Origin: Salinibacter ruber DSM 13855
Lineage (GTDB): Bacteria; Bacteroidota; Rhodothermia; Rhodothermales; Salinibacteraceae
Length of the DNA stretch: 64,000 nucleotides
Assembly: GCF_000013045.1 (NCBI RefSeq)
Contig: NC_007677.1
Span: forward strand, 1,488,001 to 1,552,000
Direction of reading: 5' to 3'
Position 1 is the first letter of the stretch. The number at the start of each line of letters is the position of its first letter. Under the pieces are notes generated by a model. The model saw nothing but the letters and a program-made list of their open reading frames with translations, was not told the DNA's origin and did not search any database. Made by a program: the position numbers and the translations under genes. Shown here in pieces: positions 32,060 to 43,219 of this stretch.

Positions 32060-32683
32060 ATGACTACGGCGACCGACGGGTCGGAGGAAGCCGAACTCCG
32101 CCGCCACATTTTGGATACGGCGCGTCACCTGCTCGTGCAGGAGGGCTATAAGGCGCTGTCGATGCGCACGATTGCCGACGCCATTGGCTACAGCGCCACC
32201 AGCATCTACCTTCACTTCGACGGCAAGGACGCGCTGCTCCACGCCCTCATCCACGAGGGCATGATGGCGTTGCGGGATCGTCTCCGAGACGCGGCGGCGC
32301 AACACCCTGAGTCCCCGGTTCAGCGTCTCCACGCCCTCTGCGAATGCTTCGTCGAGTTTGGGCTCGAAAACCCGGAGTACTACGAGATTATGTTCCAGTT
32401 GCGGCCGGAGCGGATGGAACGCTATCCGCCCGAAAAGTACCGAGCGGCCCGTGAGAATCTGGACTTCTTTGCCCGGGCCCTTGACGAAGGCGTCGACCAG
32501 GGCATTTTCGAGGTGGACGACAGCCGGGTGTCCGCGAGCGCCGTCTGGGCGTCGCTGCACGGCACCGTGTCGCTGCTCCTGGCCGACCGCGTGGACGTGC
32601 ACATCGACCCGGACGCGTTCATCGAGACCGCCATCCGCCAGGTCCTCCGTGGATTCCAAGCGCCTGCCGCGTCCACGTCCTGA
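32060..32683 (+). CDS. TetR/AcrR-family regulator, likely of fatty-acid degradation
   Basis: A 207-residue repressor. The N-terminal helix-turn-helix is standard: LRRHILDTARHLLVQEGYKALSMRTIADAIGYSATSIYLHFDGKDALL. The C-terminal part is an all-helical ligand domain. It stands first in a run of beta-oxidation genes on the same strand (acyl-CoA ligase starts 63 bp downstream), so an acyl-CoA-responsive FadR role is a strong contextual guess. Sites sharing CCGTTAA and GTTAAC before two genes of the block are its best operator candidates. ATG at 32060 is preferred over GTG four codons upstream. Confidence 0.88.
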   Translation: MTTATDGSEEAELRRHILDTARHLLVQEGYKALSMRTIADAIGYSATSIYLHFDGKDALLHALIHEGMMALRDRLRDAAAQHPESPVQRLHALCECFVEFGLENPEYYEIMFQLRPERMERYPPEKYRAARENLDFFARALDEGVDQGIFEVDDSRVSASAVWASLHGTVSLLLADRVDVHIDPDAFIETAIRQVLRGFQAPAASTS

Positions 32684-32746: not shown

Positions 32747-34645
32747 ATGTCCGGTCCCATTTACACGGCGCCCCCAGATGCTGGTCCCTGCGTGCGGGGG
32801 CGGACCATCCCTGATCTGCTGTACGAGGCCACCGACGCGTACGACAACCCCCAGGCCCTGAACCAGCCGACCGACGAGGGCTGGGTGCCCATGTCGCTCG
32901 ATCAATTTCGGCGGCGGGCGGAAGCGACGGCCCTGGGCCTGCGTGCCCTCGGCCTGGAGCAGGGGGCGAAGGTGGCCCTCCTCCTGGAGAGCGACGTGCA
33001 CTACTGTGTCGTCGACATGGGGTGCCTGATCGGGGGCCTCATCGACGTGCCGCTGTACCTGTCGAGCGCGGCGGAGCAGATGCAGTACGTCGTCGACCAC
33101 GCCGAGGCAGAGGCGCTCGTCGTCTCCAACCCGAAGCGCCTCGGGCAGGCCGCGGCCCTGCTCCCGGACCTGCCCCGCATCGAGACGGTCATCGTCTGCG
33201 ACCCCGGCGACGAGGACGCCCGCCCGGACCTGCCGGACCGGGTGACGCTAAAGACGCTGGAGGCCGTTCAGGCCCTCGGCCGCGCCGAGGTTGAGGACCC
33301 GTCCGCGGCCGTCGACGACCTGCGGGCGGAAATCGACCCCCAGGACCTCGCGACCATCATCTACACGAGTGGCACCACGGGGCGGCCCAAGGGCGTGATG
33401 CTGTCCCACGAGAACATCTCGTCGAACGCCATTACGTCGATCGCGGAGATCGACGACTTCGAGACCGGTCCGGAAGGGGAAGTGGTGATCTCGTTCCTGC
33501 CCCTCACGCATGTGTTCGCCCGCATGCTGCAGTACGCCTACATGATGCGGGGCATCAGCATCTACTTCGCCCACCCCGACGACCTCGTGGACGCCCTGCC
33601 GAAGGTGCGACCGACGGTCTTCGCGTCGGTCCCGCGCGTCCTCGAAAAGGTGTACGCCGGCATCAAGAAGAAGGTGATGGGCATGCAGGGGCTTCAGAAG
33701 CGCATCGGGGAGTGGGGGCTCCAGGTGGCGCAGGACTACGACATGACCCGGTCGCAGCCGCCCCTCTACGCCCTCAAGCGCGCAGCGGCGGACCGGCTCG
33801 TGTTTCGAAAGTGGCGAGCTGCCTTTGGGGGCCGGGTGAAATACGTGGTCGTAGGAGGGGCGGCCCTCCAGCCGGACCTCGCCAACATCCTGGCGGCGGC
33901 GGACATCACGACGCTTCAGGGATACGGCCTGACCGAGACGAGCCCGGTGATCTCCTACACCCGCCCCCAGCGCAACAAGCCCGGCACGGTGGGCGAGCCC
34001 CTGCCCGGCGTGGAGGTCAAAATTGCGGAGGACGGAGAAATCCTAACGCGGGGCCCCCACGTAATGCAGGGCTACTACAAGGCCCCCGACGAGACGGACG
34101 CCGTCATGGAAGAGAACGGATGGCTCCACACCGGGGACATCGGCGAGTTCGACGAAGACGGCTTTCTCAAAATCACCGACCGCAAGAAGGCCCTCTTCAA
34201 ACTCTCAACCGGAAAGTACGTGATGCCCCAGCCCATCGAGAACCGAATGGGAAGTGACCCGCTGGTGGACAACGCCGTCGTCGTAGGCCGGGACCGCAAG
34301 TTCTGTGCGGCCCTGCTGTTTCCGGCCCCGGACCAGGCGCAGGCGCTGGCGTCCGAACGGGGCCTGGGCGCCGAGCGAGACATTGAAGATCTCCTGACTG
34401 AGCCCGACATTGTGAATGCGTACCGGTCGATCGTGCAGAGCGCGAACGAAGGGATGGAGCCCTGGTCGACCGTCAAGCGCCTGGCCCTCGTCCCCGACGA
34501 ACTGACCGTGGACTCGGACCTAATGACCCCGACCATGAAGATCCGCCGGCCGGAGGTGCGGACGGCCTACGCCGACGAGATTGAGGCCCTGTACGACGAA
34601 GACGGAGCGGGGGGCGGACGGGGGGTGGTTCTGGTGGAGGTGTGA
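32747..34645 (+). CDS. fadD: Long-chain acyl-CoA synthetase (AMP-forming)
   Basis: A 632-residue adenylate-forming enzyme that activates fatty acids to acyl-CoA with ATP. The P-loop-like motif IIYTSGTTGRPKGVMLSHEN lies at about residues 203-222; GYGLTETSPVISY, WLHTGDIGEFDEDGFLKITDRKK and a C-terminal Lys-bearing subdomain (LMTPTMKIRRPEV) complete the set. Length and motifs match the eukaryote-like long-chain ligases (FAA1/FadD15 group). It supplies substrate for the beta-oxidation genes that follow. Confidence 0.93.
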   Translation: MSGPIYTAPPDAGPCVRGRTIPDLLYEATDAYDNPQALNQPTDEGWVPMSLDQFRRRAEATALGLRALGLEQGAKVALLLESDVHYCVVDMGCLIGGLIDVPLYLSSAAEQMQYVVDHAEAEALVVSNPKRLGQAAALLPDLPRIETVIVCDPGDEDARPDLPDRVTLKTLEAVQALGRAEVEDPSAAVDDLRAEIDPQDLATIIYTSGTTGRPKGVMLSHENISSNAITSIAEIDDFETGPEGEVVISFLPLTHVFARMLQYAYMMRGISIYFAHPDDLVDALPKVRPTVFASVPRVLEKVYAGIKKKVMGMQGLQKRIGEWGLQVAQDYDMTRSQPPLYALKRAAADRLVFRKWRAAFGGRVKYVVVGGAALQPDLANILAAADITTLQGYGLTETSPVISYTRPQRNKPGTVGEPLPGVEVKIAEDGEILTRGPHVMQGYYKAPDETDAVMEENGWLHTGDIGEFDEDGFLKITDRKKALFKLSTGKYVMPQPIENRMGSDPLVDNAVVVGRDRKFCAALLFPAPDQAQALASERGLGAERDIEDLLTEPDIVNAYRSIVQSANEGMEPWSTVKRLALVPDELTVDSDLMTPTMKIRRPEVRTAYADEIEALYDEDGAGGGRGVVLVEV

Positions 34646-34716
34646 TGCACGCAGAGAGGCGGGGCTGTCTAGGCGCCTCCCTCGGGCTGGAAGCGATTCC
34701 GGATCTTGATGCCCGC

Positions 34717-34733
34717 GGTTAACGCCGTTAACG
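34717..34733. promoter_or_regulatory. Candidate fatty-acid operator upstream of the fadN-like gene
   Basis: The element GGTTAACGCCGTTAACG contains two GTTAACG-type half sites 9 nt apart, 40 bp before the start codon. GTTAAC is rare in this GC-rich DNA. The same CCGTTAA core forms the long inverted repeat before the fadE-like gene. Confidence 0.5.
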
Positions 34734-34772
34734 TCGACAAATCTGTTCTCATTCACGTCCCGAACTGACGCC

Positions 34773-37181
34773 ATGGACACCACATCCCTTGACACGCGCG
34801 CTCTCGACCTGGAGCCCCCCCCCACGCACCCCCCGTTCCGGACTGCGGCCGTGCTGGGGGCCGGCACCATGGGCGCGCAGATCGCGGCACACCTCGCCAA
34901 CGCCGGCCTGGAGGTGCACCTGCTCGACATTGCGCCGGACGACGACGATCCGAACGCCGTCGTGCGGGAGGGCTTTGAGCAGGCCCGTGAGGCGAGCCCC
35001 GACCCCTTCTTCGCCGACGAGGCGGCCGACCGGGTCCACCTCGGCAACTTCGAGGAGCATTTCGATCGAATCGGGGCCGTTGACTGGATTGTGGAGGCGG
35101 TCGTGGAGCGGATGGACGTGAAGCGCGACGTGCACGCCCGCATCGAGGCGCACGCCGCGGACGACGCGGTCATCTCCACGAACACCAGCGGGCTGCCCAT
35201 TCACGCCATCACCGAGGGGCGGTCCGCAGACTTCAAGCGCCGCTTTCTGGGCACCCACTTCTACAACCCGCCGCGCTACCTGAAGCTTTTGGAGTTGGTG
35301 CCCACCGACGCCACCGATCCGGACGTCACGGAGCGGGTGGCGCAGTTTGGGCGGCTGCGGCTGGGCAAGGGCATCGTCGTGGCGAACGACGTCCCCTACT
35401 TCATCGGCAACCGGATCGGCGTCTTCGCCCAGCTGCAGGCGATCCGCTACTTCACCGACGGCGACTACACGATCGAAGAGATCGATACGCTGACGGGAAC
35501 GATCTCGGGCCGGCCCAAGTCCGCGACCTTCCGCACCGCCGACCTCGTGGGGCTCGACGTACTGATGGACGTGGCTACCAACCTGCGGGAGCTGGTCGAC
35601 GACGAGGCGCAGCGCGAGGCGTTCGCCGTGCCGGACGTGCTGGAGCGCCTCGTGGATGACGGCCGGCTGGGGGAGAAGACGAAGGCCGGATTCTACAAGA
35701 AAGAAGATGGAGAGATCAAGTCGGTGGACCCGGACACCCTCGGCTACACGAGCGCGGCGGACGAGGAGCTTGGCGATCTCGGGGCAGTCTGGAACGCGGG
35801 GGGGCTGTCGGCCCGCCTCCAGGCCCTCTACGAGGACGACGGCCGAGCGGGGCGGTTCTTCCGGGAGACGACGCTGGAGCTGCTGGCCTACAGTGCGAAC
35901 CGCCTCGGAGAGGTCTCCGACAACCCGGCGGACGTGGACCGGGCCATCCGCTGGGGATTCGGGTGGACGATGGGGCCGTTCGAGATGTGGGACGCCCTCG
36001 GGATGGAGACCGTCCTCGACGGCCTGGAGGCGCAGGCCTTCGACGTGCCGGGCTGGGTCCACGCCATGCACGAGCGGGGCGAAACCTTCTACGACACGCG
36101 AGACGGCGAGCAGGCGGTCTTCATGCCCCACGCCGACCGGCACGAGCCCGATCCGCGGCCGGCAGACGAACTTCGCCTCGCCCCGATCAAGCAGGACGCC
36201 GCGAACGAGCTCTGGAGCACCGACGACGCGGCCCTGCTCGACGTGGGCGATGGGGTGGCCCTCTTCGAGTTTCGGTCGAAGGCCAATACCCTGGGGCGCG
36301 ACGTGATGATGGGGCTCCGGGAGTGCGTCGGGCGGGTGGAGCAGGACGCCAACCTGCGCGGAATGATCGTGGGCAACGAGGGCAAAAACTTCTCCGTCGG
36401 GGCCAACCTGGGGGAGATGGCAATGGCGGCCTCGGAGGGCGCGTTCGACGTGATCGACCAGTACATCGACGAATTTCAGCGGACGATCCAGCAGGTGCGG
36501 TACGCGTCGTCGCCGGTGGTGGTGGCCCCGCACCAGCGCGTGCTGGGGGGCGGCTGCGAGATGGCGATGGCCTGCCCGCACCCGGTGGCCGCCGCCGAGA
36601 CGTACATCGGCCTCGTGGAGCTGGGCGTGGGGCTCATTCCCGCCGGGACCGGCACCATGCGCCTCGCCGCCAGGGCCGCGCAGGACGCCCCGAACGACAA
36701 CCACAACGCGATCCAGGATCACCTGCGCCCCTACTTCGAGACGGTGGCGATGGCCGAGGTGGCCGAGAGTGCCGCGCAGGGCATCGAGATGGGCTTCCTG
36801 CCCGAGAACACGCGCGTCGTGATGCACGAGGACCGACGCCTCTACGCCGCGAAGCAGGAGGTGCTGCGCCTCAGCGAGCAGGGCTACGCCCCGCCGCCTG
36901 TGATGAACAAGATCAAAGTGCTCGGGGCGAAAACGCTCTCCACCTTCAAGGTGGCCCTGATGCAGTACCGCGAGGGGAAGTACATCACCGAGTACGACGA
37001 GCACCTCGCCACGCAGCTCGGGAAAGTGATGTGCGGCGGGAAGCTGAGCAGCCCGCAGGAGGTGCACGAGGACTACCTGATCGAGTTGGAGCGGGAGGTC
37101 TTCCTAAGCCTTCTGGGCGAGGAGAAGACCCAGGCCCGCATCCAGCACATGCTGGAGCACAACAAGCCCCTCCGGAATTAG
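34773..37181 (+). CDS. fadN: 3-hydroxyacyl-CoA dehydrogenase / enoyl-CoA hydratase (FadN type)
   Basis: An 802-residue bifunctional enzyme performing hydration of 2-enoyl-CoA and NAD-dependent oxidation of 3-hydroxyacyl-CoA. The dehydrogenase half comes first (AAVLGAGTMGAQIAAHLANAG, SNTSGLPI-type ISTNTSGLPI, HFYNPPRYLKLLELVPT, GRPKSATFRTADLVGLD), then the crotonase half (LFEFRSKANTLGRDVM, VGNEGKNFSVGANLGEM, RVLGGGCEMAMACPH). This order is as in Bacillus FadN and opposite to E. coli FadB. Followed by thiolase after 116 bp, completing the cycle. Confidence 0.93.
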   Translation: MDTTSLDTRALDLEPPPTHPPFRTAAVLGAGTMGAQIAAHLANAGLEVHLLDIAPDDDDPNAVVREGFEQAREASPDPFFADEAADRVHLGNFEEHFDRIGAVDWIVEAVVERMDVKRDVHARIEAHAADDAVISTNTSGLPIHAITEGRSADFKRRFLGTHFYNPPRYLKLLELVPTDATDPDVTERVAQFGRLRLGKGIVVANDVPYFIGNRIGVFAQLQAIRYFTDGDYTIEEIDTLTGTISGRPKSATFRTADLVGLDVLMDVATNLRELVDDEAQREAFAVPDVLERLVDDGRLGEKTKAGFYKKEDGEIKSVDPDTLGYTSAADEELGDLGAVWNAGGLSARLQALYEDDGRAGRFFRETTLELLAYSANRLGEVSDNPADVDRAIRWGFGWTMGPFEMWDALGMETVLDGLEAQAFDVPGWVHAMHERGETFYDTRDGEQAVFMPHADRHEPDPRPADELRLAPIKQDAANELWSTDDAALLDVGDGVALFEFRSKANTLGRDVMMGLRECVGRVEQDANLRGMIVGNEGKNFSVGANLGEMAMAASEGAFDVIDQYIDEFQRTIQQVRYASSPVVVAPHQRVLGGGCEMAMACPHPVAAAETYIGLVELGVGLIPAGTGTMRLAARAAQDAPNDNHNAIQDHLRPYFETVAMAEVAESAAQGIEMGFLPENTRVVMHEDRRLYAAKQEVLRLSEQGYAPPPVMNKIKVLGAKTLSTFKVALMQYREGKYITEYDEHLATQLGKVMCGGKLSSPQEVHEDYLIELEREVFLSLLGEEKTQARIQHMLEHNKPLRN

Positions 37182-37292
37182 GTGTTTGGCGTTGGTGGGT
37201 TGTGCGCTAAGTGTTTTCGTCTACGGTTCCTGTCCCACCGCTCACCCCCAACCCAAAACACTCAACGCCCAAACTCTCCAACCTTCAACCCA
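37182..37292. repeat. Inverted pair of TTGGGCGTTGAG-type repeats between fadN and fadA
   Basis: Just after the fadN stop comes a copy (GTTTGGCGTTGGTGGGTTG); before the thiolase start a copy lies in the opposite sense (CAACCC…CACTCAACGCCCAAAC). They are the same degenerate family as the tracts at 8576 and 59521 and may form a weak hairpin in the fadN-fadA message. Confidence 0.55.
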
Positions 37293-37297
37293 GACCC

Positions 37298-38503
37298 ATG
37301 AAAGCAACAAACGACGCCTACATTGTCAGTAGCGTCCGCACGCCCGTCGGCAAGGCCGAGAAGGGCACCCTCGCACACTACCGGCCGGAGGACCTCGGCG
37401 CCGAGGCCGTGACAGGGGCGCTGGGCCGCGTCGACGGCCTGGAGCCCGAGATGGTGGACGACGTGCTGATGGGCTGCGCCTTTCCGGAGGGCCCGCAGGG
37501 AATGAACGTGGGCCGCCTGATCGCGCAGAAGGCCGGATTGCCGGACCACGTGCCGGGCGCGACGGTCAACCGCTTCTGCTCGTCGGGCCTGCAGACGATC
37601 GCCCAGGCCTCGCAGCGAATCGCCACGGGAACGGCCGACGTGATCGTGGCGGGCGGGGCGGAGTCGATGAGCCAGGTGCCGATGAGTGGCTTCTTCTTTC
37701 AGCCGGACCCGGAGCTGACGGAGGAAAAAGTGGGCACGTATGTCTCCATGGGCATTACCGCCGAAAACGTGGCCGACGAGTACGGGGTGTCGCGGGAGGA
37801 CCAGGACCGCTTCGCGCTGCGCTCCCACGAGCGAGCGGTGGACGCCATCGACCAGGGGCGGTTCGAGGACGAGCTGGTGCCGCTGACCCTGGAGGAGACG
37901 CACTACCAGTCGGCAAACGGGCACGCAGGGGAGGCCACGACCGAAACCGTGACGTTGGAGGTCGACGAGGGGCCGCGTCGCGACACGAACCTGGACGTGC
38001 TCGCCAAGCTGCCCGCCGCGTTTCGGGAGGGCGGCAGCGTCACGCCGGGCAACTCCTCCCAGCGGTCCGACGGGGGGGCCGCGACCGTCGTGATGAGCGG
38101 CGACCGGGTCGCAGACCTCGGCGTGGATCCGCTCGGGGCGCTGAGGGGGTTCGCCGTGGCGGGCGTCGACCCGGAGCTCATGGGCATCGGGCCGGCGGAG
38201 GCGATCCCGCAGGCGCTGGCGCAAACCGGGCTCTCGGTCGACGACATTGGGCTCGTGGAGCTGAACGAGGCCTTTGCCTCGCAGTCGCTGGCCGTGATTC
38301 GAGAGGTAGGGCTCGATCCGAACATCGTCAACGTGAATGGTGGGGCGATTGCGCTGGGACACCCGCTCGGTTGCACCGGGGCGAAGCTCACCGCCACGCT
38401 GCTGCACGAAATGATCCGCCGCGAGGTGCGATACGGCCTCTGCACGATGTGCGTGGGGGGCGGGATGGGCGCCGCGGGCGTGATCGAAAACCTTCGGCTT
38501 TGA
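37298..38503 (+). CDS. fadA: Acetyl-CoA C-acyltransferase (thiolase)
   Basis: A 401-residue thiolase that cleaves 3-ketoacyl-CoA with CoA, the last step of beta-oxidation. The nucleophile Cys is in NRFCSSGLQTIA (about residue 92), the His in GGAIALGHPLGCTGAKL, and the second Cys in CTMCVGGGMGAAG. ATG at 37298 is chosen; the open frame upstream is repeat sequence. Pairs with the FadN-type enzyme upstream as a trifunctional system. Confidence 0.95.
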   Translation: MKATNDAYIVSSVRTPVGKAEKGTLAHYRPEDLGAEAVTGALGRVDGLEPEMVDDVLMGCAFPEGPQGMNVGRLIAQKAGLPDHVPGATVNRFCSSGLQTIAQASQRIATGTADVIVAGGAESMSQVPMSGFFFQPDPELTEEKVGTYVSMGITAENVADEYGVSREDQDRFALRSHERAVDAIDQGRFEDELVPLTLEETHYQSANGHAGEATTETVTLEVDEGPRRDTNLDVLAKLPAAFREGGSVTPGNSSQRSDGGAATVVMSGDRVADLGVDPLGALRGFAVAGVDPELMGIGPAEAIPQALAQTGLSVDDIGLVELNEAFASQSLAVIREVGLDPNIVNVNGGAIALGHPLGCTGAKLTATLLHEMIRREVRYGLCTMCVGGGMGAAGVIENLRL

Positions 38504-38563
38504 CGGGCCGGGCGCGCCTCTGTATCAGACACGGCAGGTCTTTTTGTACGACCCGTTTTGTAT

Positions 38564-39310
38564 ATGAGCGCAAGAATTGAAGGGAAGGTCGTCGTGATTA
38601 CGGGGGCCAGCAGCGGGCTCGGCGAGGCGGCCGCGCGGCATCTGTCCGACCATGGCGCCCGTGTCGTGCTGGGGGCGCGGCGTACCCAGCGCCTCAACAC
38701 GATCGCCGACGAAATCGTCGAGGGCGGCGGGGAGGCACGTGCCGTCTCCACCGACGTCACCGAGCGCCAGCAGGTCCAGGCCCTGGTCGACGCCGCGGTC
38801 GACGCGTTCGGCCGCATCGACGTGATGCTCAACAACGCCGGCGTCATGCCGCTCTCCCCGCTCGATCGGCTCAACGTCGACGAGTGGGACCAGATGATCG
38901 ACGTCAACGTGAAGGGCGTCCTGTACGGCATTGCGGCGGCCCTGCCCTACATGAAAGAGCAGGCGTCCGGCCACATCATCAACGTCGCCTCCGACGCGGG
39001 CCACGAGGTACACGAGGGCAGTGCCGTGTACGCGGCCACGAAGCACGCCGTGCGGGCCCTCTCCGACGGGCTGCGCCAGGAGGCAACACCCTACGGCCTC
39101 CGCACGACCATCATCTCCCCCGGGGCCGTCGAATCGGAACTGCCGGATACGATCTCCGAAGGGGACGTGGCCGAGGAGACTGAGTCGCTCTACGACGAGC
39201 ATGCCGTGTCGGCCGATTCGTTTGCGCGGGCCGTCGCGTTTGCGATCGAGCAGCCGGAGGACGTTGACGTGAACGAGATCCTCTACCGGCCCACCACTCA
39301 GAATCTCTAA
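38564..39310 (+). CDS. Short-chain dehydrogenase/reductase
   Basis: A 248-residue classical SDR. NAD(P)-binding [11 protein letters not shown] near residues 13-23, the structural NNAG motif ([10 protein letters not shown]), catalytic Ser in NVASDAGHE and YAATKHAV with the catalytic Tyr/Lys are all present; [10 protein letters not shown] follows. Family includes 3-ketoacyl and alcohol reductases; the exact substrate is unknown, but placement inside the fatty-acid block suggests an acyl-chain role. The two Arg after the first strand (GARRTQRL) favour NADPH. Confidence 0.88.
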
Positions 39311-39676
39311 CGTCGATCAGCTTCGGCGCCCGGGGATTCGCCGGCATATGCTTTGGAGACGAGGAGCGTTGCTTCGGTCTGCGCCCATGCGCACCGCGGA
39401 GCGCGCCGAGCAGAACGCTTCTGAGAGCCGTGGTTCATTTCTGGGGCCGCACGGACGTTCCGCTACAGCAGTAGGCGATGAGGAGGGCCGTGGGACGCCA
39501 TAAGTATTCGGGTGGGACCCGAACAGGGCCTGTCGGTGAACTTGCAGAGGATAACACCGTTAATTATAATGATGACGTAAATTAACGGTGTTAACCAGCG
39601 CTCCACAGCGGTTTGCACCCGGTTCGACGATCGGGCCGGGACGCACGAATCTGTTCACCAGTTCAGAGGGCCCGCC
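39311..39676. other. Intergenic region upstream of fadE
   Basis: A 366-bp stretch without a gene. Its only clear structure is the inverted repeat at 39552-39593, 83 bp before the fadE start, in a local AT-rich island. No RNA gene or small reading frame of protein-like character was seen. Confidence 0.6.
39552..39593. promoter_or_regulatory. Long inverted repeat, candidate operator of fadE
   Basis: Two perfect 14-nt arms (TAACACCGTTAATT and its complement) are separated by the 14-nt spacer ATAATGATGACGTA. The AT-rich dyad, in a GC-rich genome and before an acyl-CoA dehydrogenase gene, looks like a site for a dimeric regulator, most plausibly the TetR protein encoded at the head of the block. 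Confidence 0.7.
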
Positions 39677-42307
39677 ATGACTCTTCCGTTGTTTGACTTC
39701 TTTGCCGGCATGCCGACGGCCGGTATTGTCGGGGGAATGCTCCTCGTGCTCGCTGTACTCGGCTACACCGGGGCGCCGCTCTGGGCGTGGGCCCTGGCCG
39801 GAGCCGTCGGGCTCTACGGGGGCGGCGCGCCGCTCTGGGTCTGGATCCCGTACGGGGGACTCGTGGCCGTCTTCAACATTGGGCCGATCCGGCGCCAGGT
39901 GTCCGCGGGCGTGATGGGATTGATGGAAGCGCTTCAGTTCCTGCCGACCATCTCGGAGACCGAGCAGACGGCCATCGACGCGGGAACCGTGTGGATGGAG
40001 GGGGAGCTGTTCTCCGGAAAGCCCGACTTTGAGAAGACCCTCGATCAGCTCTACCCGGAGCTCTCCGACGACGAGCAGGCGTTCCTAGACGGGCCGTGCG
40101 AGGAGGTGTGTGCGATGGTCGACGACTGGCAGGTCCACCAGCGCGGCGACCTGTCGGCCGAGACGTGGGACTACCTGAAGGAGAAGGGATTCTTCGGGCT
40201 CATCATTCCGGAGGCGTACGGCGGGAAAGGCTTTTCCGTTGCCGCCCGGAGTGCGGTGGTGCAGAAGCTGGGCGGGCACTCGGTGCCCCTGTCCATCACG
40301 GTGATGGTGCCCAACTCCCTCGGCCCCGGCGAGTTGCTGCTCCACTACGGCACCGACGAGCAGCAGGACCACTACCTGCCGCAACTGGCGAGTGGCGAGA
40401 TCCTGCCCTCGTTTGCGCTCACGGAGCCGAACGCGGGGTCGGACGCGGGGGCGATGGAGTCCACCGGCGAGGTGTTTGAAGACGAGGATGGAGAGCTGAA
40501 GCTGCGCCTCAACTGGGAGAAGCGCTACATTTCGCTGGCCGCCATTTCCGGGGTGCTCGGCCTGGCGTTCAAGCTGCACGACCCCGAAAATCACCTGGGC
40601 AAAGGCGAAGACCTGGGCATTACCTGTGCGCTTGTGCCGACCGACACGCCGGGCGTCAAGCTGGGGCGTCGCCACGACCCCCTCGGCGTGGCGTTCTTCA
40701 ACTGCCCCACGGAGGGGGAGGACGTGGTGCTGCCCCTGGACGCCATCATCGGCGGGAGAGACGGGGCGGGCGAAGGCTGGGCCATGCTGATGGACGCGCT
40801 CTCGGCGGGGCGGGGCATCATGCTGCCGGCACAGGCGGTGGGGGGCGGCAAGATGGTGACGCGTGTGGCGGGTGGGCACGCCGCCATCCGCGAGCAGTTT
40901 GGCCTTTCGATTGGGAAGTTCGAGGGCATCGAGGAGCCGCTGGCGCGCATTGCCGGGTACACGTACATCATGGATGCCGCACGGACGTACACGAACGGCG
41001 CGGTGGACCAGGGGGAGAAGCCGGGCGTGGTGTCGGCCATCATGAAGTACAACACCACCGAGCTGCAGCGCGACCTGGTGAACGACGGGATGGACGTGCT
41101 GGCGGGCAACGGGATCTCGCAGGGGCCGAACAACCTGATGGGACTGGCCTACCAGGCGCAGCCGATCAGCATTACGGTGGAGGGGGCGAACATCCTAACG
41201 CGGACGATGATGATCTTCGGTCAGGGCGCGATCCGGTGCCACCCGTACGCCCTCGACGAAATTGAGGCCTTGATGGAGGGGGACGTGGACGCCTTCGACG
41301 ACGCCTTCTGGAGTCACATCGGGCACGTGGTGCGCAACGGCTTTCGCGCTCTTGGCCTCAGCCTCACCCGGGGCCGCCTGGCGAGCAGCCCGGTACGCGG
41401 CCCCGCCGCGCCTTACTACCGCAAGATGGCGTGGGCGTCGGCCAGCTTCGCCTTTTTTGCCGACCTGGCGATGGGCAGCCTGGGGGGCATGCTGAAGCGG
41501 AAGGAGAAGATCACAGGGCGTTTTGCGGACATCCTGTCGTGGATGTACCTGGGCACGGCGGTGCTCACGCGGTTCGAAAAAGAGGGCCGGCCGGAGGAAC
41601 AGGAGGCCTTCCTGCATTGGAGCATGCAGCACGCCTTCGCGCAGATGCAGGAGGCGTTCGACGGCCTATTCGAGAACCTGAAGGTGCCGGGGGGGACCTG
41701 GCTCCTGCGGGGCCTGGTGGCGCCGTGGTCCCGCCTCAACACGATCGGTGAGAGGCCGGGGGACGACCTGGGGAGCACGCTCGCACGGGCGATTCAGGAG
41801 AAGGCGGGCGCCCGCGAGTGGCTCACGGAGGACCTGTACGTGCCCGACGATCCCGATCAGCCGCTGGGGGAGCTGGAGCGGGCGTTCCGACTCAGCCGCG
41901 AGGCCTACCACGTCGGCCAGAAAATCAAGGCGGCGATTCGTGCCGGCGACCTACCGAAGCGGCGTCCTCATCAGCTCCTCGAAGAGGCGGTGGAGCACGG
42001 TGTGATTACCGAGGAGGACCGAGCCCTCGTCCGCCGCGCCGACGCGGCGCGGGAGCGCTACATCCAGGTGGACGCCTTTGACCTAGAGGAGTATCGACAG
42101 GGCCGCATGCTTCCGGGGCAGCCCGCCGACCGGGGCGCCCTCGATTCCTCGATCGTAGAGGGACTAGAGCGGGACGTGACGGACGTGGAGGTCACGCCGG
42201 AGGATGTGGACGGCGGGGCGCCGCATCCGCGGGGGGATGGCGCCCCCGACGCGACGGACGAGGACGAGCCGGAGGCTGACCGATCGGGGACCCGCGAACC
42301 GGCGTAG
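39677..42307 (+). CDS. fadE: Acyl-CoA dehydrogenase, FadE type
   Basis: An 876-residue FAD enzyme for the first beta-oxidation step. Two N-terminal membrane helices (about residues 12-60) are followed by the FadE-specific block TISETEQTAIDAGTVWMEGELFSGKPDFEK, which parallels E. coli FadE. The ACAD core has LKEKGFFGLIIPEAYGGKG, LTEPNAGSDAGA and the long C-terminal FadE domain (DUF1974-like, with RKMAWASASFAFFADLAMG). The last 60 residues are a strongly acidic tail rich in Asp, Glu and Pro. Preceded by a long inverted repeat. Together with the ligase, FadN and FadA genes it makes the pathway complete. Confidence 0.93.
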   Translation: MTLPLFDFFAGMPTAGIVGGMLLVLAVLGYTGAPLWAWALAGAVGLYGGGAPLWVWIPYGGLVAVFNIGPIRRQVSAGVMGLMEALQFLPTISETEQTAIDAGTVWMEGELFSGKPDFEKTLDQLYPELSDDEQAFLDGPCEEVCAMVDDWQVHQRGDLSAETWDYLKEKGFFGLIIPEAYGGKGFSVAARSAVVQKLGGHSVPLSITVMVPNSLGPGELLLHYGTDEQQDHYLPQLASGEILPSFALTEPNAGSDAGAMESTGEVFEDEDGELKLRLNWEKRYISLAAISGVLGLAFKLHDPENHLGKGEDLGITCALVPTDTPGVKLGRRHDPLGVAFFNCPTEGEDVVLPLDAIIGGRDGAGEGWAMLMDALSAGRGIMLPAQAVGGGKMVTRVAGGHAAIREQFGLSIGKFEGIEEPLARIAGYTYIMDAARTYTNGAVDQGEKPGVVSAIMKYNTTELQRDLVNDGMDVLAGNGISQGPNNLMGLAYQAQPISITVEGANILTRTMMIFGQGAIRCHPYALDEIEALMEGDVDAFDDAFWSHIGHVVRNGFRALGLSLTRGRLASSPVRGPAAPYYRKMAWASASFAFFADLAMGSLGGMLKRKEKITGRFADILSWMYLGTAVLTRFEKEGRPEEQEAFLHWSMQHAFAQMQEAFDGLFENLKVPGGTWLLRGLVAPWSRLNTIGERPGDDLGSTLARAIQEKAGAREWLTEDLYVPDDPDQPLGELERAFRLSREAYHVGQKIKAAIRAGDLPKRRPHQLLEEAVEHGVITEEDRALVRRADAARERYIQVDAFDLEEYRQGRMLPGQPADRGALDSSIVEGLERDVTDVEVTPEDVDGGAPHPRGDGAPDATDEDEPEADRSGTREPA

Positions 42308-42364: not shown

Positions 42365-43219
42365 ATGTCCGATTCCTTTGCGCCCGACCTCCTCGCCGAT
42401 CAGCACATTGTCGTCACCGGCGGCGGGACCGGGCTGGGCCGCGCAATGGCCCTCCGGTTTGCCGACCTGGGCGCGGCTGTGACGATCAACGGGCGTCGCC
42501 CCGATCCGCTGGCCGAGACGGTGAGGGACATCGAGGCGGCGGGGGGCGCCGCGGAGGGCATCCAGTGCAACGTCCGCGATTACGAGGCCGTGCAGGCCTT
42601 CTTCGAGGAGGCGGAGGATCGCCAGGGGCCCGTGACGCGGCTCGTCAACAACGCCGCGGCCAACTTCCTGGCGCCGACGGAGGACATTTCGCCGAACGGC
42701 TTCGACGCCATTGTCCAGACGAACCTGTACGGGTCCTTCTACTGCACGCAGGCCTGCGGGCAGCGGTGGCTGGAGCGGGACGCGGAGGGCGTCGTGCTCT
42801 CCATCGCCACCACCTACGCGGAGACGGGCAGCGCCTACGTGGTGCCCAGCGCTATGTCGAAGGCTGGCATCGTCGCCATGACGCGCTCGCTGGCGGCGGA
42901 ATGGGGAAGCGAAGGAATCCGCCTCAACGCCGTGGCCCCCGGCCCCTTCCCGACCGAGGGCGCGTGGGACCGGCTCGTGCCCGACGACGACCTGGAGCAA
43001 AAAATGCGGGAGCGCGTCCCGGTGCGTCGGTTTGGGGAGCCCGAGGAGCTGGCCACCCTGGCCAGCTTCCTTCTCAGTGACCTGTCCGCGTTCATGAACG
43101 GCGAGGTCGTCACGTTCGACGGCGGAGAAGCCCTGGCGGCGGGCGGCCAGTTCAACACGTTCACCCGCATGCCGCGTCGCCAGGTGAAGGCCCTCATGGA
43201 ACAGATGCGTCCGGAATGA
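42365..43219 (+). CDS. 2,4-dienoyl-CoA reductase-like SDR
   Basis: A 284-residue SDR that resembles mitochondrial 2,4-dienoyl-CoA reductase (DECR1) rather than the FadH flavoprotein. Evidence is VVTGGGTGLGRAMA, LVNNAAANFLAPTEDISPNGF, YAETGSAYVVPSAMSKAG (where the usual YxxxK is replaced by the DECR pattern), SLAAEWGSEGIRLNAVAPGPF and the C-terminal VVTFDGGE. By family it uses NADPH to reduce dienoyl-CoA made from unsaturated fatty acids. Lies 57 bp after fadE on the same strand. Confidence 0.88.
   Translation: MSDSFAPDLLADQHIVVTGGGTGLGRAMALRFADLGAAVTINGRRPDPLAETVRDIEAAGGAAEGIQCNVRDYEAVQAFFEEAEDRQGPVTRLVNNAAANFLAPTEDISPNGFDAIVQTNLYGSFYCTQACGQRWLERDAEGVVLSIATTYAETGSAYVVPSAMSKAGIVAMTRSLAAEWGSEGIRLNAVAPGPFPTEGAWDRLVPDDDLEQKMRERVPVRRFGEPEELATLASFLLSDLSAFMNGEVVTFDGGEALAAGGQFNTFTRMPRRQVKALMEQMRPE

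Follow-up and report, generated by a model that had tools for sequence, protein, structure and literature searches.

A FadR-like TetR-family regulator and its 15-bp palindromic operator, predicted at beta-oxidation genes of Salinibacter ruber and its relatives

The window analysed here, 64,000 nucleotides at 1,488,001-1,552,000 on contig 1 of the Salinibacter ruber DSM 13855 genome, contains a block of beta-oxidation genes with a TetR-type gene at its head, as an earlier note on this DNA had described. The genes follow in the order tetR, fadD-like, fadN-like, thiolase, short-chain dehydrogenase (SDR), fadE-like and SDR, and the synteny of tetR and fadD is preserved among relatives:

32060..32683, plus strand: tetR, predicted TetR-family repressor; start ATG 32060 (GTG 32048 in the mechanical ORF); TetR_N 2.5e-16, TetR_C_33 2.7e-16
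32747..34645, plus strand: fadD-like acyl-CoA synthetase, 63 bp after tetR; AMP-binding 3.7e-74
34773..37181, plus strand: fadN/fadB-like 3-hydroxyacyl-CoA dehydrogenase / enoyl-CoA hydratase; 3HCDH_N 1.6e-43, ECH_1 2.9e-14
37298..38503, plus strand: fadA-like thiolase; start ATG 37298 (GTG 37211 in the mechanical ORF); Thiolase_N 6.2e-69, NCBIfam TIGR01930 above its cut-off
38564..39310, plus strand: short-chain dehydrogenase; adh_short 3.6e-58
39677..42307, plus strand: fadE-like acyl-CoA dehydrogenase; ACDH_C 1.3e-102, NCBIfam NF007000 at 1051 bits (cut-off 600)
42365..43219, plus strand: SDR resembling 2,4-dienoyl-CoA reductase, 57 bp after fadE; best NCBIfam model NF005811, whose cut-off it misses (264 versus 318 bits)

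Both domain content and fold place the product of the first gene in the TetR family. Its N-terminal helix-turn-helix matches PF00440 (2.5e-16; 59.6 bits against a cut-off of 24), and the AlphaFold model (pLDDT 92.3) has the all-helical TetR fold, with TetR proteins as its best structure matches. Orthologues share an almost invariant recognition helix, (S/T)ATxIYL, and the named close relatives come from Salinibacter altiplanensis (86% identity) and Longimonas halophila. The acyl-CoA-binding TetR proteins AibR, Bacillus FadR and FasR are found among the profile and fold matches, together with others. Foldseek matched acyl-CoA sensors and other TetR proteins alike and, not being discriminating, was dropped for ligand identification. 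PsrA, FasR, FabR, KstR and AibR likewise belong to the TetR family and regulate fatty-acyl, branched-acyl or steroid metabolism, but the protein in the window widely misses the NCBIfam equivalog cut-offs for PsrA (NF053516; 27.6 versus 300 bits), FasR (NF053731; 38.1 versus 330), FabR (NF008402; 37.1 versus 151) and KstR. The Bacillus-type FadR model (NF053878) was rejected on the same grounds, at 35.8 bits against a cut-off of 200. The protein probably works like FadR while standing outside the Bacillus FadR, PsrA, FasR and FabR equivalogs.

Pattern searches of the window and the genome single out one unit, a 15-bp palindrome, GTTAACRSYGTTAAC. The earlier note had reported a double GTTAACG element at 34717-34733 (GGTTAACGCCGTTAACG) before fadN and, at 39552-39593 before fadE, a perfect inverted repeat with arms and spacer of 14 nt each. 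Both are present; the first is better read as a single 15-bp palindrome at 34718-34732, and each arm of the second falls inside a 15-bp operator of its own. The putative control elements are as follows:

34718..34732, no strand: fadN operator, GTTAACGCCGTTAAC; perfect palindrome GTTAACG-C-CGTTAAC, from pattern searches
39542..39547, plus strand: -35-like TTGCAG of fadE; TTGCA columns conserved in 12 promoters, core-promoter role inferred
39550..39564, no strand: fadE operator 1, GATAACACCGTTAAT; fills the 17-bp spacer between TTGCAG and TATAAT; from pattern matches and conservation
39565..39570, plus strand: -10-like TATAAT of fadE; TAnnnT kept in relatives, core-promoter role inferred
39581..39595, no strand: fadE operator 2, ATTAACGGTGTTAAC; 11-25 bp past the -10-like box, spacing conserved

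The shorter cores CCGTTAA and GTTAAC, which the note had offered as the shared unit, occur in the window at chance level (3 against 2.5 expected and 4 against 3.7) and were dropped. The full palindrome with up to three mismatches is found there five times against 0.69 expected, a count reached in none of 100 shuffles. We then counted matches across the genome (3.59 Mb, two contigs), with the reversed pattern as control. With up to two mismatches to GTTAACGCCGTTAAC, the only matches are the fadN copy (no mismatch) and the downstream fadE copy (two, on the minus strand); the upstream fadE copy has three. The looser pattern WTAACRNYGTTAW recovers exactly three sites genome-wide, the fadN copy and both fadE copies, and its reversed control none. 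The genome-wide scan that the note had proposed thus places the motif before fadN and fadE and not at random positions.

At fadE, what had been described as a 14-nt inverted repeat consists of two full operator copies facing each other, with centres at 39557 and 39588. The centres lie 31 bp apart, which is about three turns of B-DNA, so that two bound dimers would share one face of the helix. In 14 genomes of three genera this distance is identical to the base pair, although the intervening sequence is not conserved: in 12 aligned fadE promoters the two operators carry 1.93 and 1.84 bits per column, and the bases between them 0.70. Because operator sites were gathered by pattern, conservation is built in at those matrix positions that the pattern fixes; the informative preferences are the unforced ones, C or G at the centre and G or C at the outer positions. 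The proposal that two dimers bind before fadE gains support from this arrangement, in which each arm is a complete operator at an invariant distance from the other. In a fourth genus (G052), TTGCAAAAC is kept with a degraded ATAACGGTGGTAC after it, at 31 bp upstream from the intact fadE site. The 12 aligned promoters also conserve TTGCA and TAnnnT on either side of operator 1. The TTGCAG/TATAAT pair before fadE is missing from the output of the automatic promoter scan, since TTGCAG matches the E. coli -35 consensus at three of six bases. A phage origin of the fadE promoter was considered and dropped after no match was found. As a separate observation, a Balneolia metagenome-assembled genome (MAG) has two operators 17 bp apart between tetR and fadN (L170:785-815), whereas the fadE operators of the Salinibacter family stand 31 bp apart.

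The pairing of this palindrome with tetR can be followed through most families of the order to which Salinibacter belongs. TetR matches occur in 86 of 114 genomes of the order (E <= 0.001). Among the best 30 loci, the palindrome (up to two mismatches) lies just upstream of 15 of 18 tetR orthologues from outside Salinibacter, about 14 to 64 bp from the gene start; for tetR loci on the minus strand it appears after the match in contig coordinates. Of a further 20, more distant loci, 11 match exactly at 13/13 positions within 100 bp, with protein identities as low as 46%, and the operator is found 14-100 bp upstream of the orthologue across many families. Named Balneolales and other Bacteroidota MAGs carry the same palindrome upstream of tetR. 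Within the Salinibacter family, where tetR is present, WTAACNNNGTTAW gives 122 forward matches against 33 in the control (summed). In families f3 and f15, in which no tetR orthologue was found, there is no excess (75 forward, 365 control).

Whereas tetR has a palindromic operator of its own in most relatives, none lies near the gene at the Salinibacter tetR loci among the best 30. An intact operator at tetR is also missing from Longimonas, its sister G057, family f12 and part of f13, and that of G052 is degraded. On this comparison, the operator at tetR itself is lost in Salinibacter, and the genus would not have kept autoregulation. In three genomes (G019, G035 and G038) a single operator precedes a tetR that heads the order tetR-fadD-fadN-fadE, presumably the older form. 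Two loci are recorded here as observations in their own right. One Salinibacter-type MAG (G073) has two distinct tetR-fad loci, L034 (C9) and L162 (C56), at 74% and 70% identity to the query, and these are either two copies or a mixed assembly. In a Planctomycetota MAG, a TetR relative (L175:9501-10082; 46%) adjoins a fadE (55%). A palindrome that has diverged, TTTACACTGTAAA, lies 38 bp before the tetR match, and the locus may be either horizontally transferred or deeply ancestral.

To describe the regulon in relatives, we inspected 33 sites in six genomes from other genera of the family (G052, G053, G054, G056, G074 and G075). All but one (32 of 33) lie upstream of tetR or lipid genes; the remaining site, in G056 (L098:2726), is within a long ORF. 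Targets include tetR, fadN, fadE, a thiolase/3HCDH-ECH pair (fadI-fadJ-like), acyl-CoA dehydrogenase and enoyl-CoA hydratase, as well as a FadL/TodX porin followed by a GDSL lipase, and an NAD_binding_4 reductase. The fadL site is retained in two other genomes of the genus Salinibacter (L101 and L146); the fadL of the window's genome (L222:2599-4311) has no operator. The operator precedes an NAD_binding_4 (male-sterility type) reductase in three genera (L096:3132, L122:3071 and L125:2903). This enzyme is possibly a fatty acyl reductase and a member of the regulon, and its placement in lipid metabolism is the least certain of the target assignments. The targets as a whole form a regulon of fatty-acid degradation genes, as is expected for a FadR-like regulator. 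The suggestion of a fatty-acid regulon under the neighbouring TetR is thus strongly supported by comparative sequence evidence: operators stand at the tetR and lipid genes of relatives, and there is no excess where tetR is missing.

We conclude that the palindromes very probably serve as operators for the tetR product (gene at 32060-32683), which would act as a FadR-like repressor with acyl-CoA as its most likely ligand. One dimer would bind each 15-bp site. At fadN a single dimer would sit just before the gene; at fadE two would lie side by side on the same face of the DNA, one within the core promoter and the other across the start region, and they may bind cooperatively. Bound TetR would keep RNA polymerase off the beta-oxidation genes. 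On uptake of fatty acids, FadD would make acyl-CoA, which most likely binds and releases the repressor, and fadN, fadA and fadE would be induced. Because tetR and fadD stand outside the operators in Salinibacter, constant production may follow, so that repressor and acyl-CoA synthetase may be constant while fadN and fadE switch. In the relatives, the entire operon would be autorepressed.

The TetR protein could be the right regulator and yet act as an activator or respond to another signal, such as a free fatty acid, a branched or short acyl-CoA or a 3-hydroxyacyl-CoA. The close profile and fold matches include AibR, a sensor of isovaleryl-CoA, and free long-chain fatty acids are what PsrA-type relatives respond to. 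The position of the fadE operators, the first between the -35-like and -10-like boxes and the second over the start region, is nonetheless that of repression, and a regulon with fadL, lipase, fadD-linked and fadE genes points to long-chain acyl-CoA; we regard this alternative as unlikely. It is still less probable that the operators belong to another regulator, for example a TetR paralogue, with the neighbouring tetR incidental. Five TetR-family matches to the query exist in the window's genome, and tetR in Salinibacter is without its own operator, but in relatives the operator lies upstream of the tetR orthologue itself, and sites are not in excess where that orthologue is missing.

The repeat at 39552-39593 might instead act as an RNA hairpin, for example one that terminates the upstream SDR gene or attenuates fadE. 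It lies between two genes and can be folded as a 14-bp stem of -19.9 kcal/mol. However, no U-tract follows it and the terminator scan did not return it; across 14 genomes, pairing between the arms falls to as few as 11 of 14 pairs without compensation while the palindrome within each arm is kept, and the single operators at fadN and at tetR in relatives have no second arm. The hairpin was rejected as highly improbable on the lack of a U-tract, the terminator scan and the uncompensated loss of pairing. That the matches merely reflect AT-rich words arising by chance in a GC-rich sequence, as the unremarkable frequency of CCGTTAA and GTTAAC might suggest, has a negligible probability given their genome-wide uniqueness, invariant spacing and cross-genus conservation.

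The predicted FadR-like repressor resembles known regulators in part. Like the FadR proteins of B. subtilis and B. halodurans (3whb, 1vi0 and 5gpa), which are beta-oxidation repressors released by acyl-CoA, it has the TetR fold (profile E 1.8e-11 to 3whb; TM about 0.7 to Bacillus FadR). Its operator differs from the Bacillus FadR motif, TGAATGA/TCATTCA, and its score against the FadR model is below the cut-off. The TetR-family FadR of Thermus thermophilus represses fatty-acid degradation from a 15-bp pseudopalindromic operator, TTRNACYNRGTNYAA (PMC5597230). The two operators share their length and AC...GT at inner positions, but the match is partial, with GTTAACRSYGTTAAC breaking TTRNACYNRGTNYAA at positions 3, 7, 9 and 13. 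In Sulfolobus acidocaldarius, an acyl-CoA-responsive FadR of the TetR family represses a lipid gene cluster, with two dimers per operator possible (PMC6449355); there the second dimer lies beside the first on one inverted-repeat region, whereas fadE here has two separate full operators at 31 bp. We found no TetR lipid regulon for Salinibacter or Rhodothermus in the literature searched, most subscription journals lying outside it. Rhodothermus marinus has reportedly been modified genetically (PMC5822342). The regulon is of a classic type of gene control and is well supported, and for lipid breakdown in Salinibacter, Longimonas and their relatives it names a regulator, an operator and a set of targets that can be tested. 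It also suggests that this control was rewired inside a single order: one autoregulated operon would have given way to dispersed operators, and these to the loss of autoregulation.

A second type of palindrome accompanies the TetR operator at many of these promoters:

34689..34700, no strand: LacI-type box, GGAAGCGATTCC, upstream of the fadN operator

The LacI-type palindrome, GGAASCGNTTCC, is present at most fadN promoters of the family and at several fadL, fadI and reductase promoters. A match of at least 11/12 occurs at 23 of 58 sites, compared with 3% of random 230-bp windows, and the genome is enriched in it (15 forward matches, 3 in the reversed control). It may be a second, carbon-source input to beta-oxidation. 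The fuller picture, which we hold to be evenly balanced between true and false, is that a TetR lipid regulon spans the order and has an operator code of its own, that Salinibacter has dropped self-control and carries a helically phased double operator at fadE, and that a LacI-type carbon-source regulator shares many promoters, giving two inputs. Four LacI proteins are encoded in the genome; one (L221:5036-6130) adjoins two of the boxes (L221:6263 and L221:12806) and lies near genes for a sodium:solute symporter (SSF) and a BadF-type kinase.
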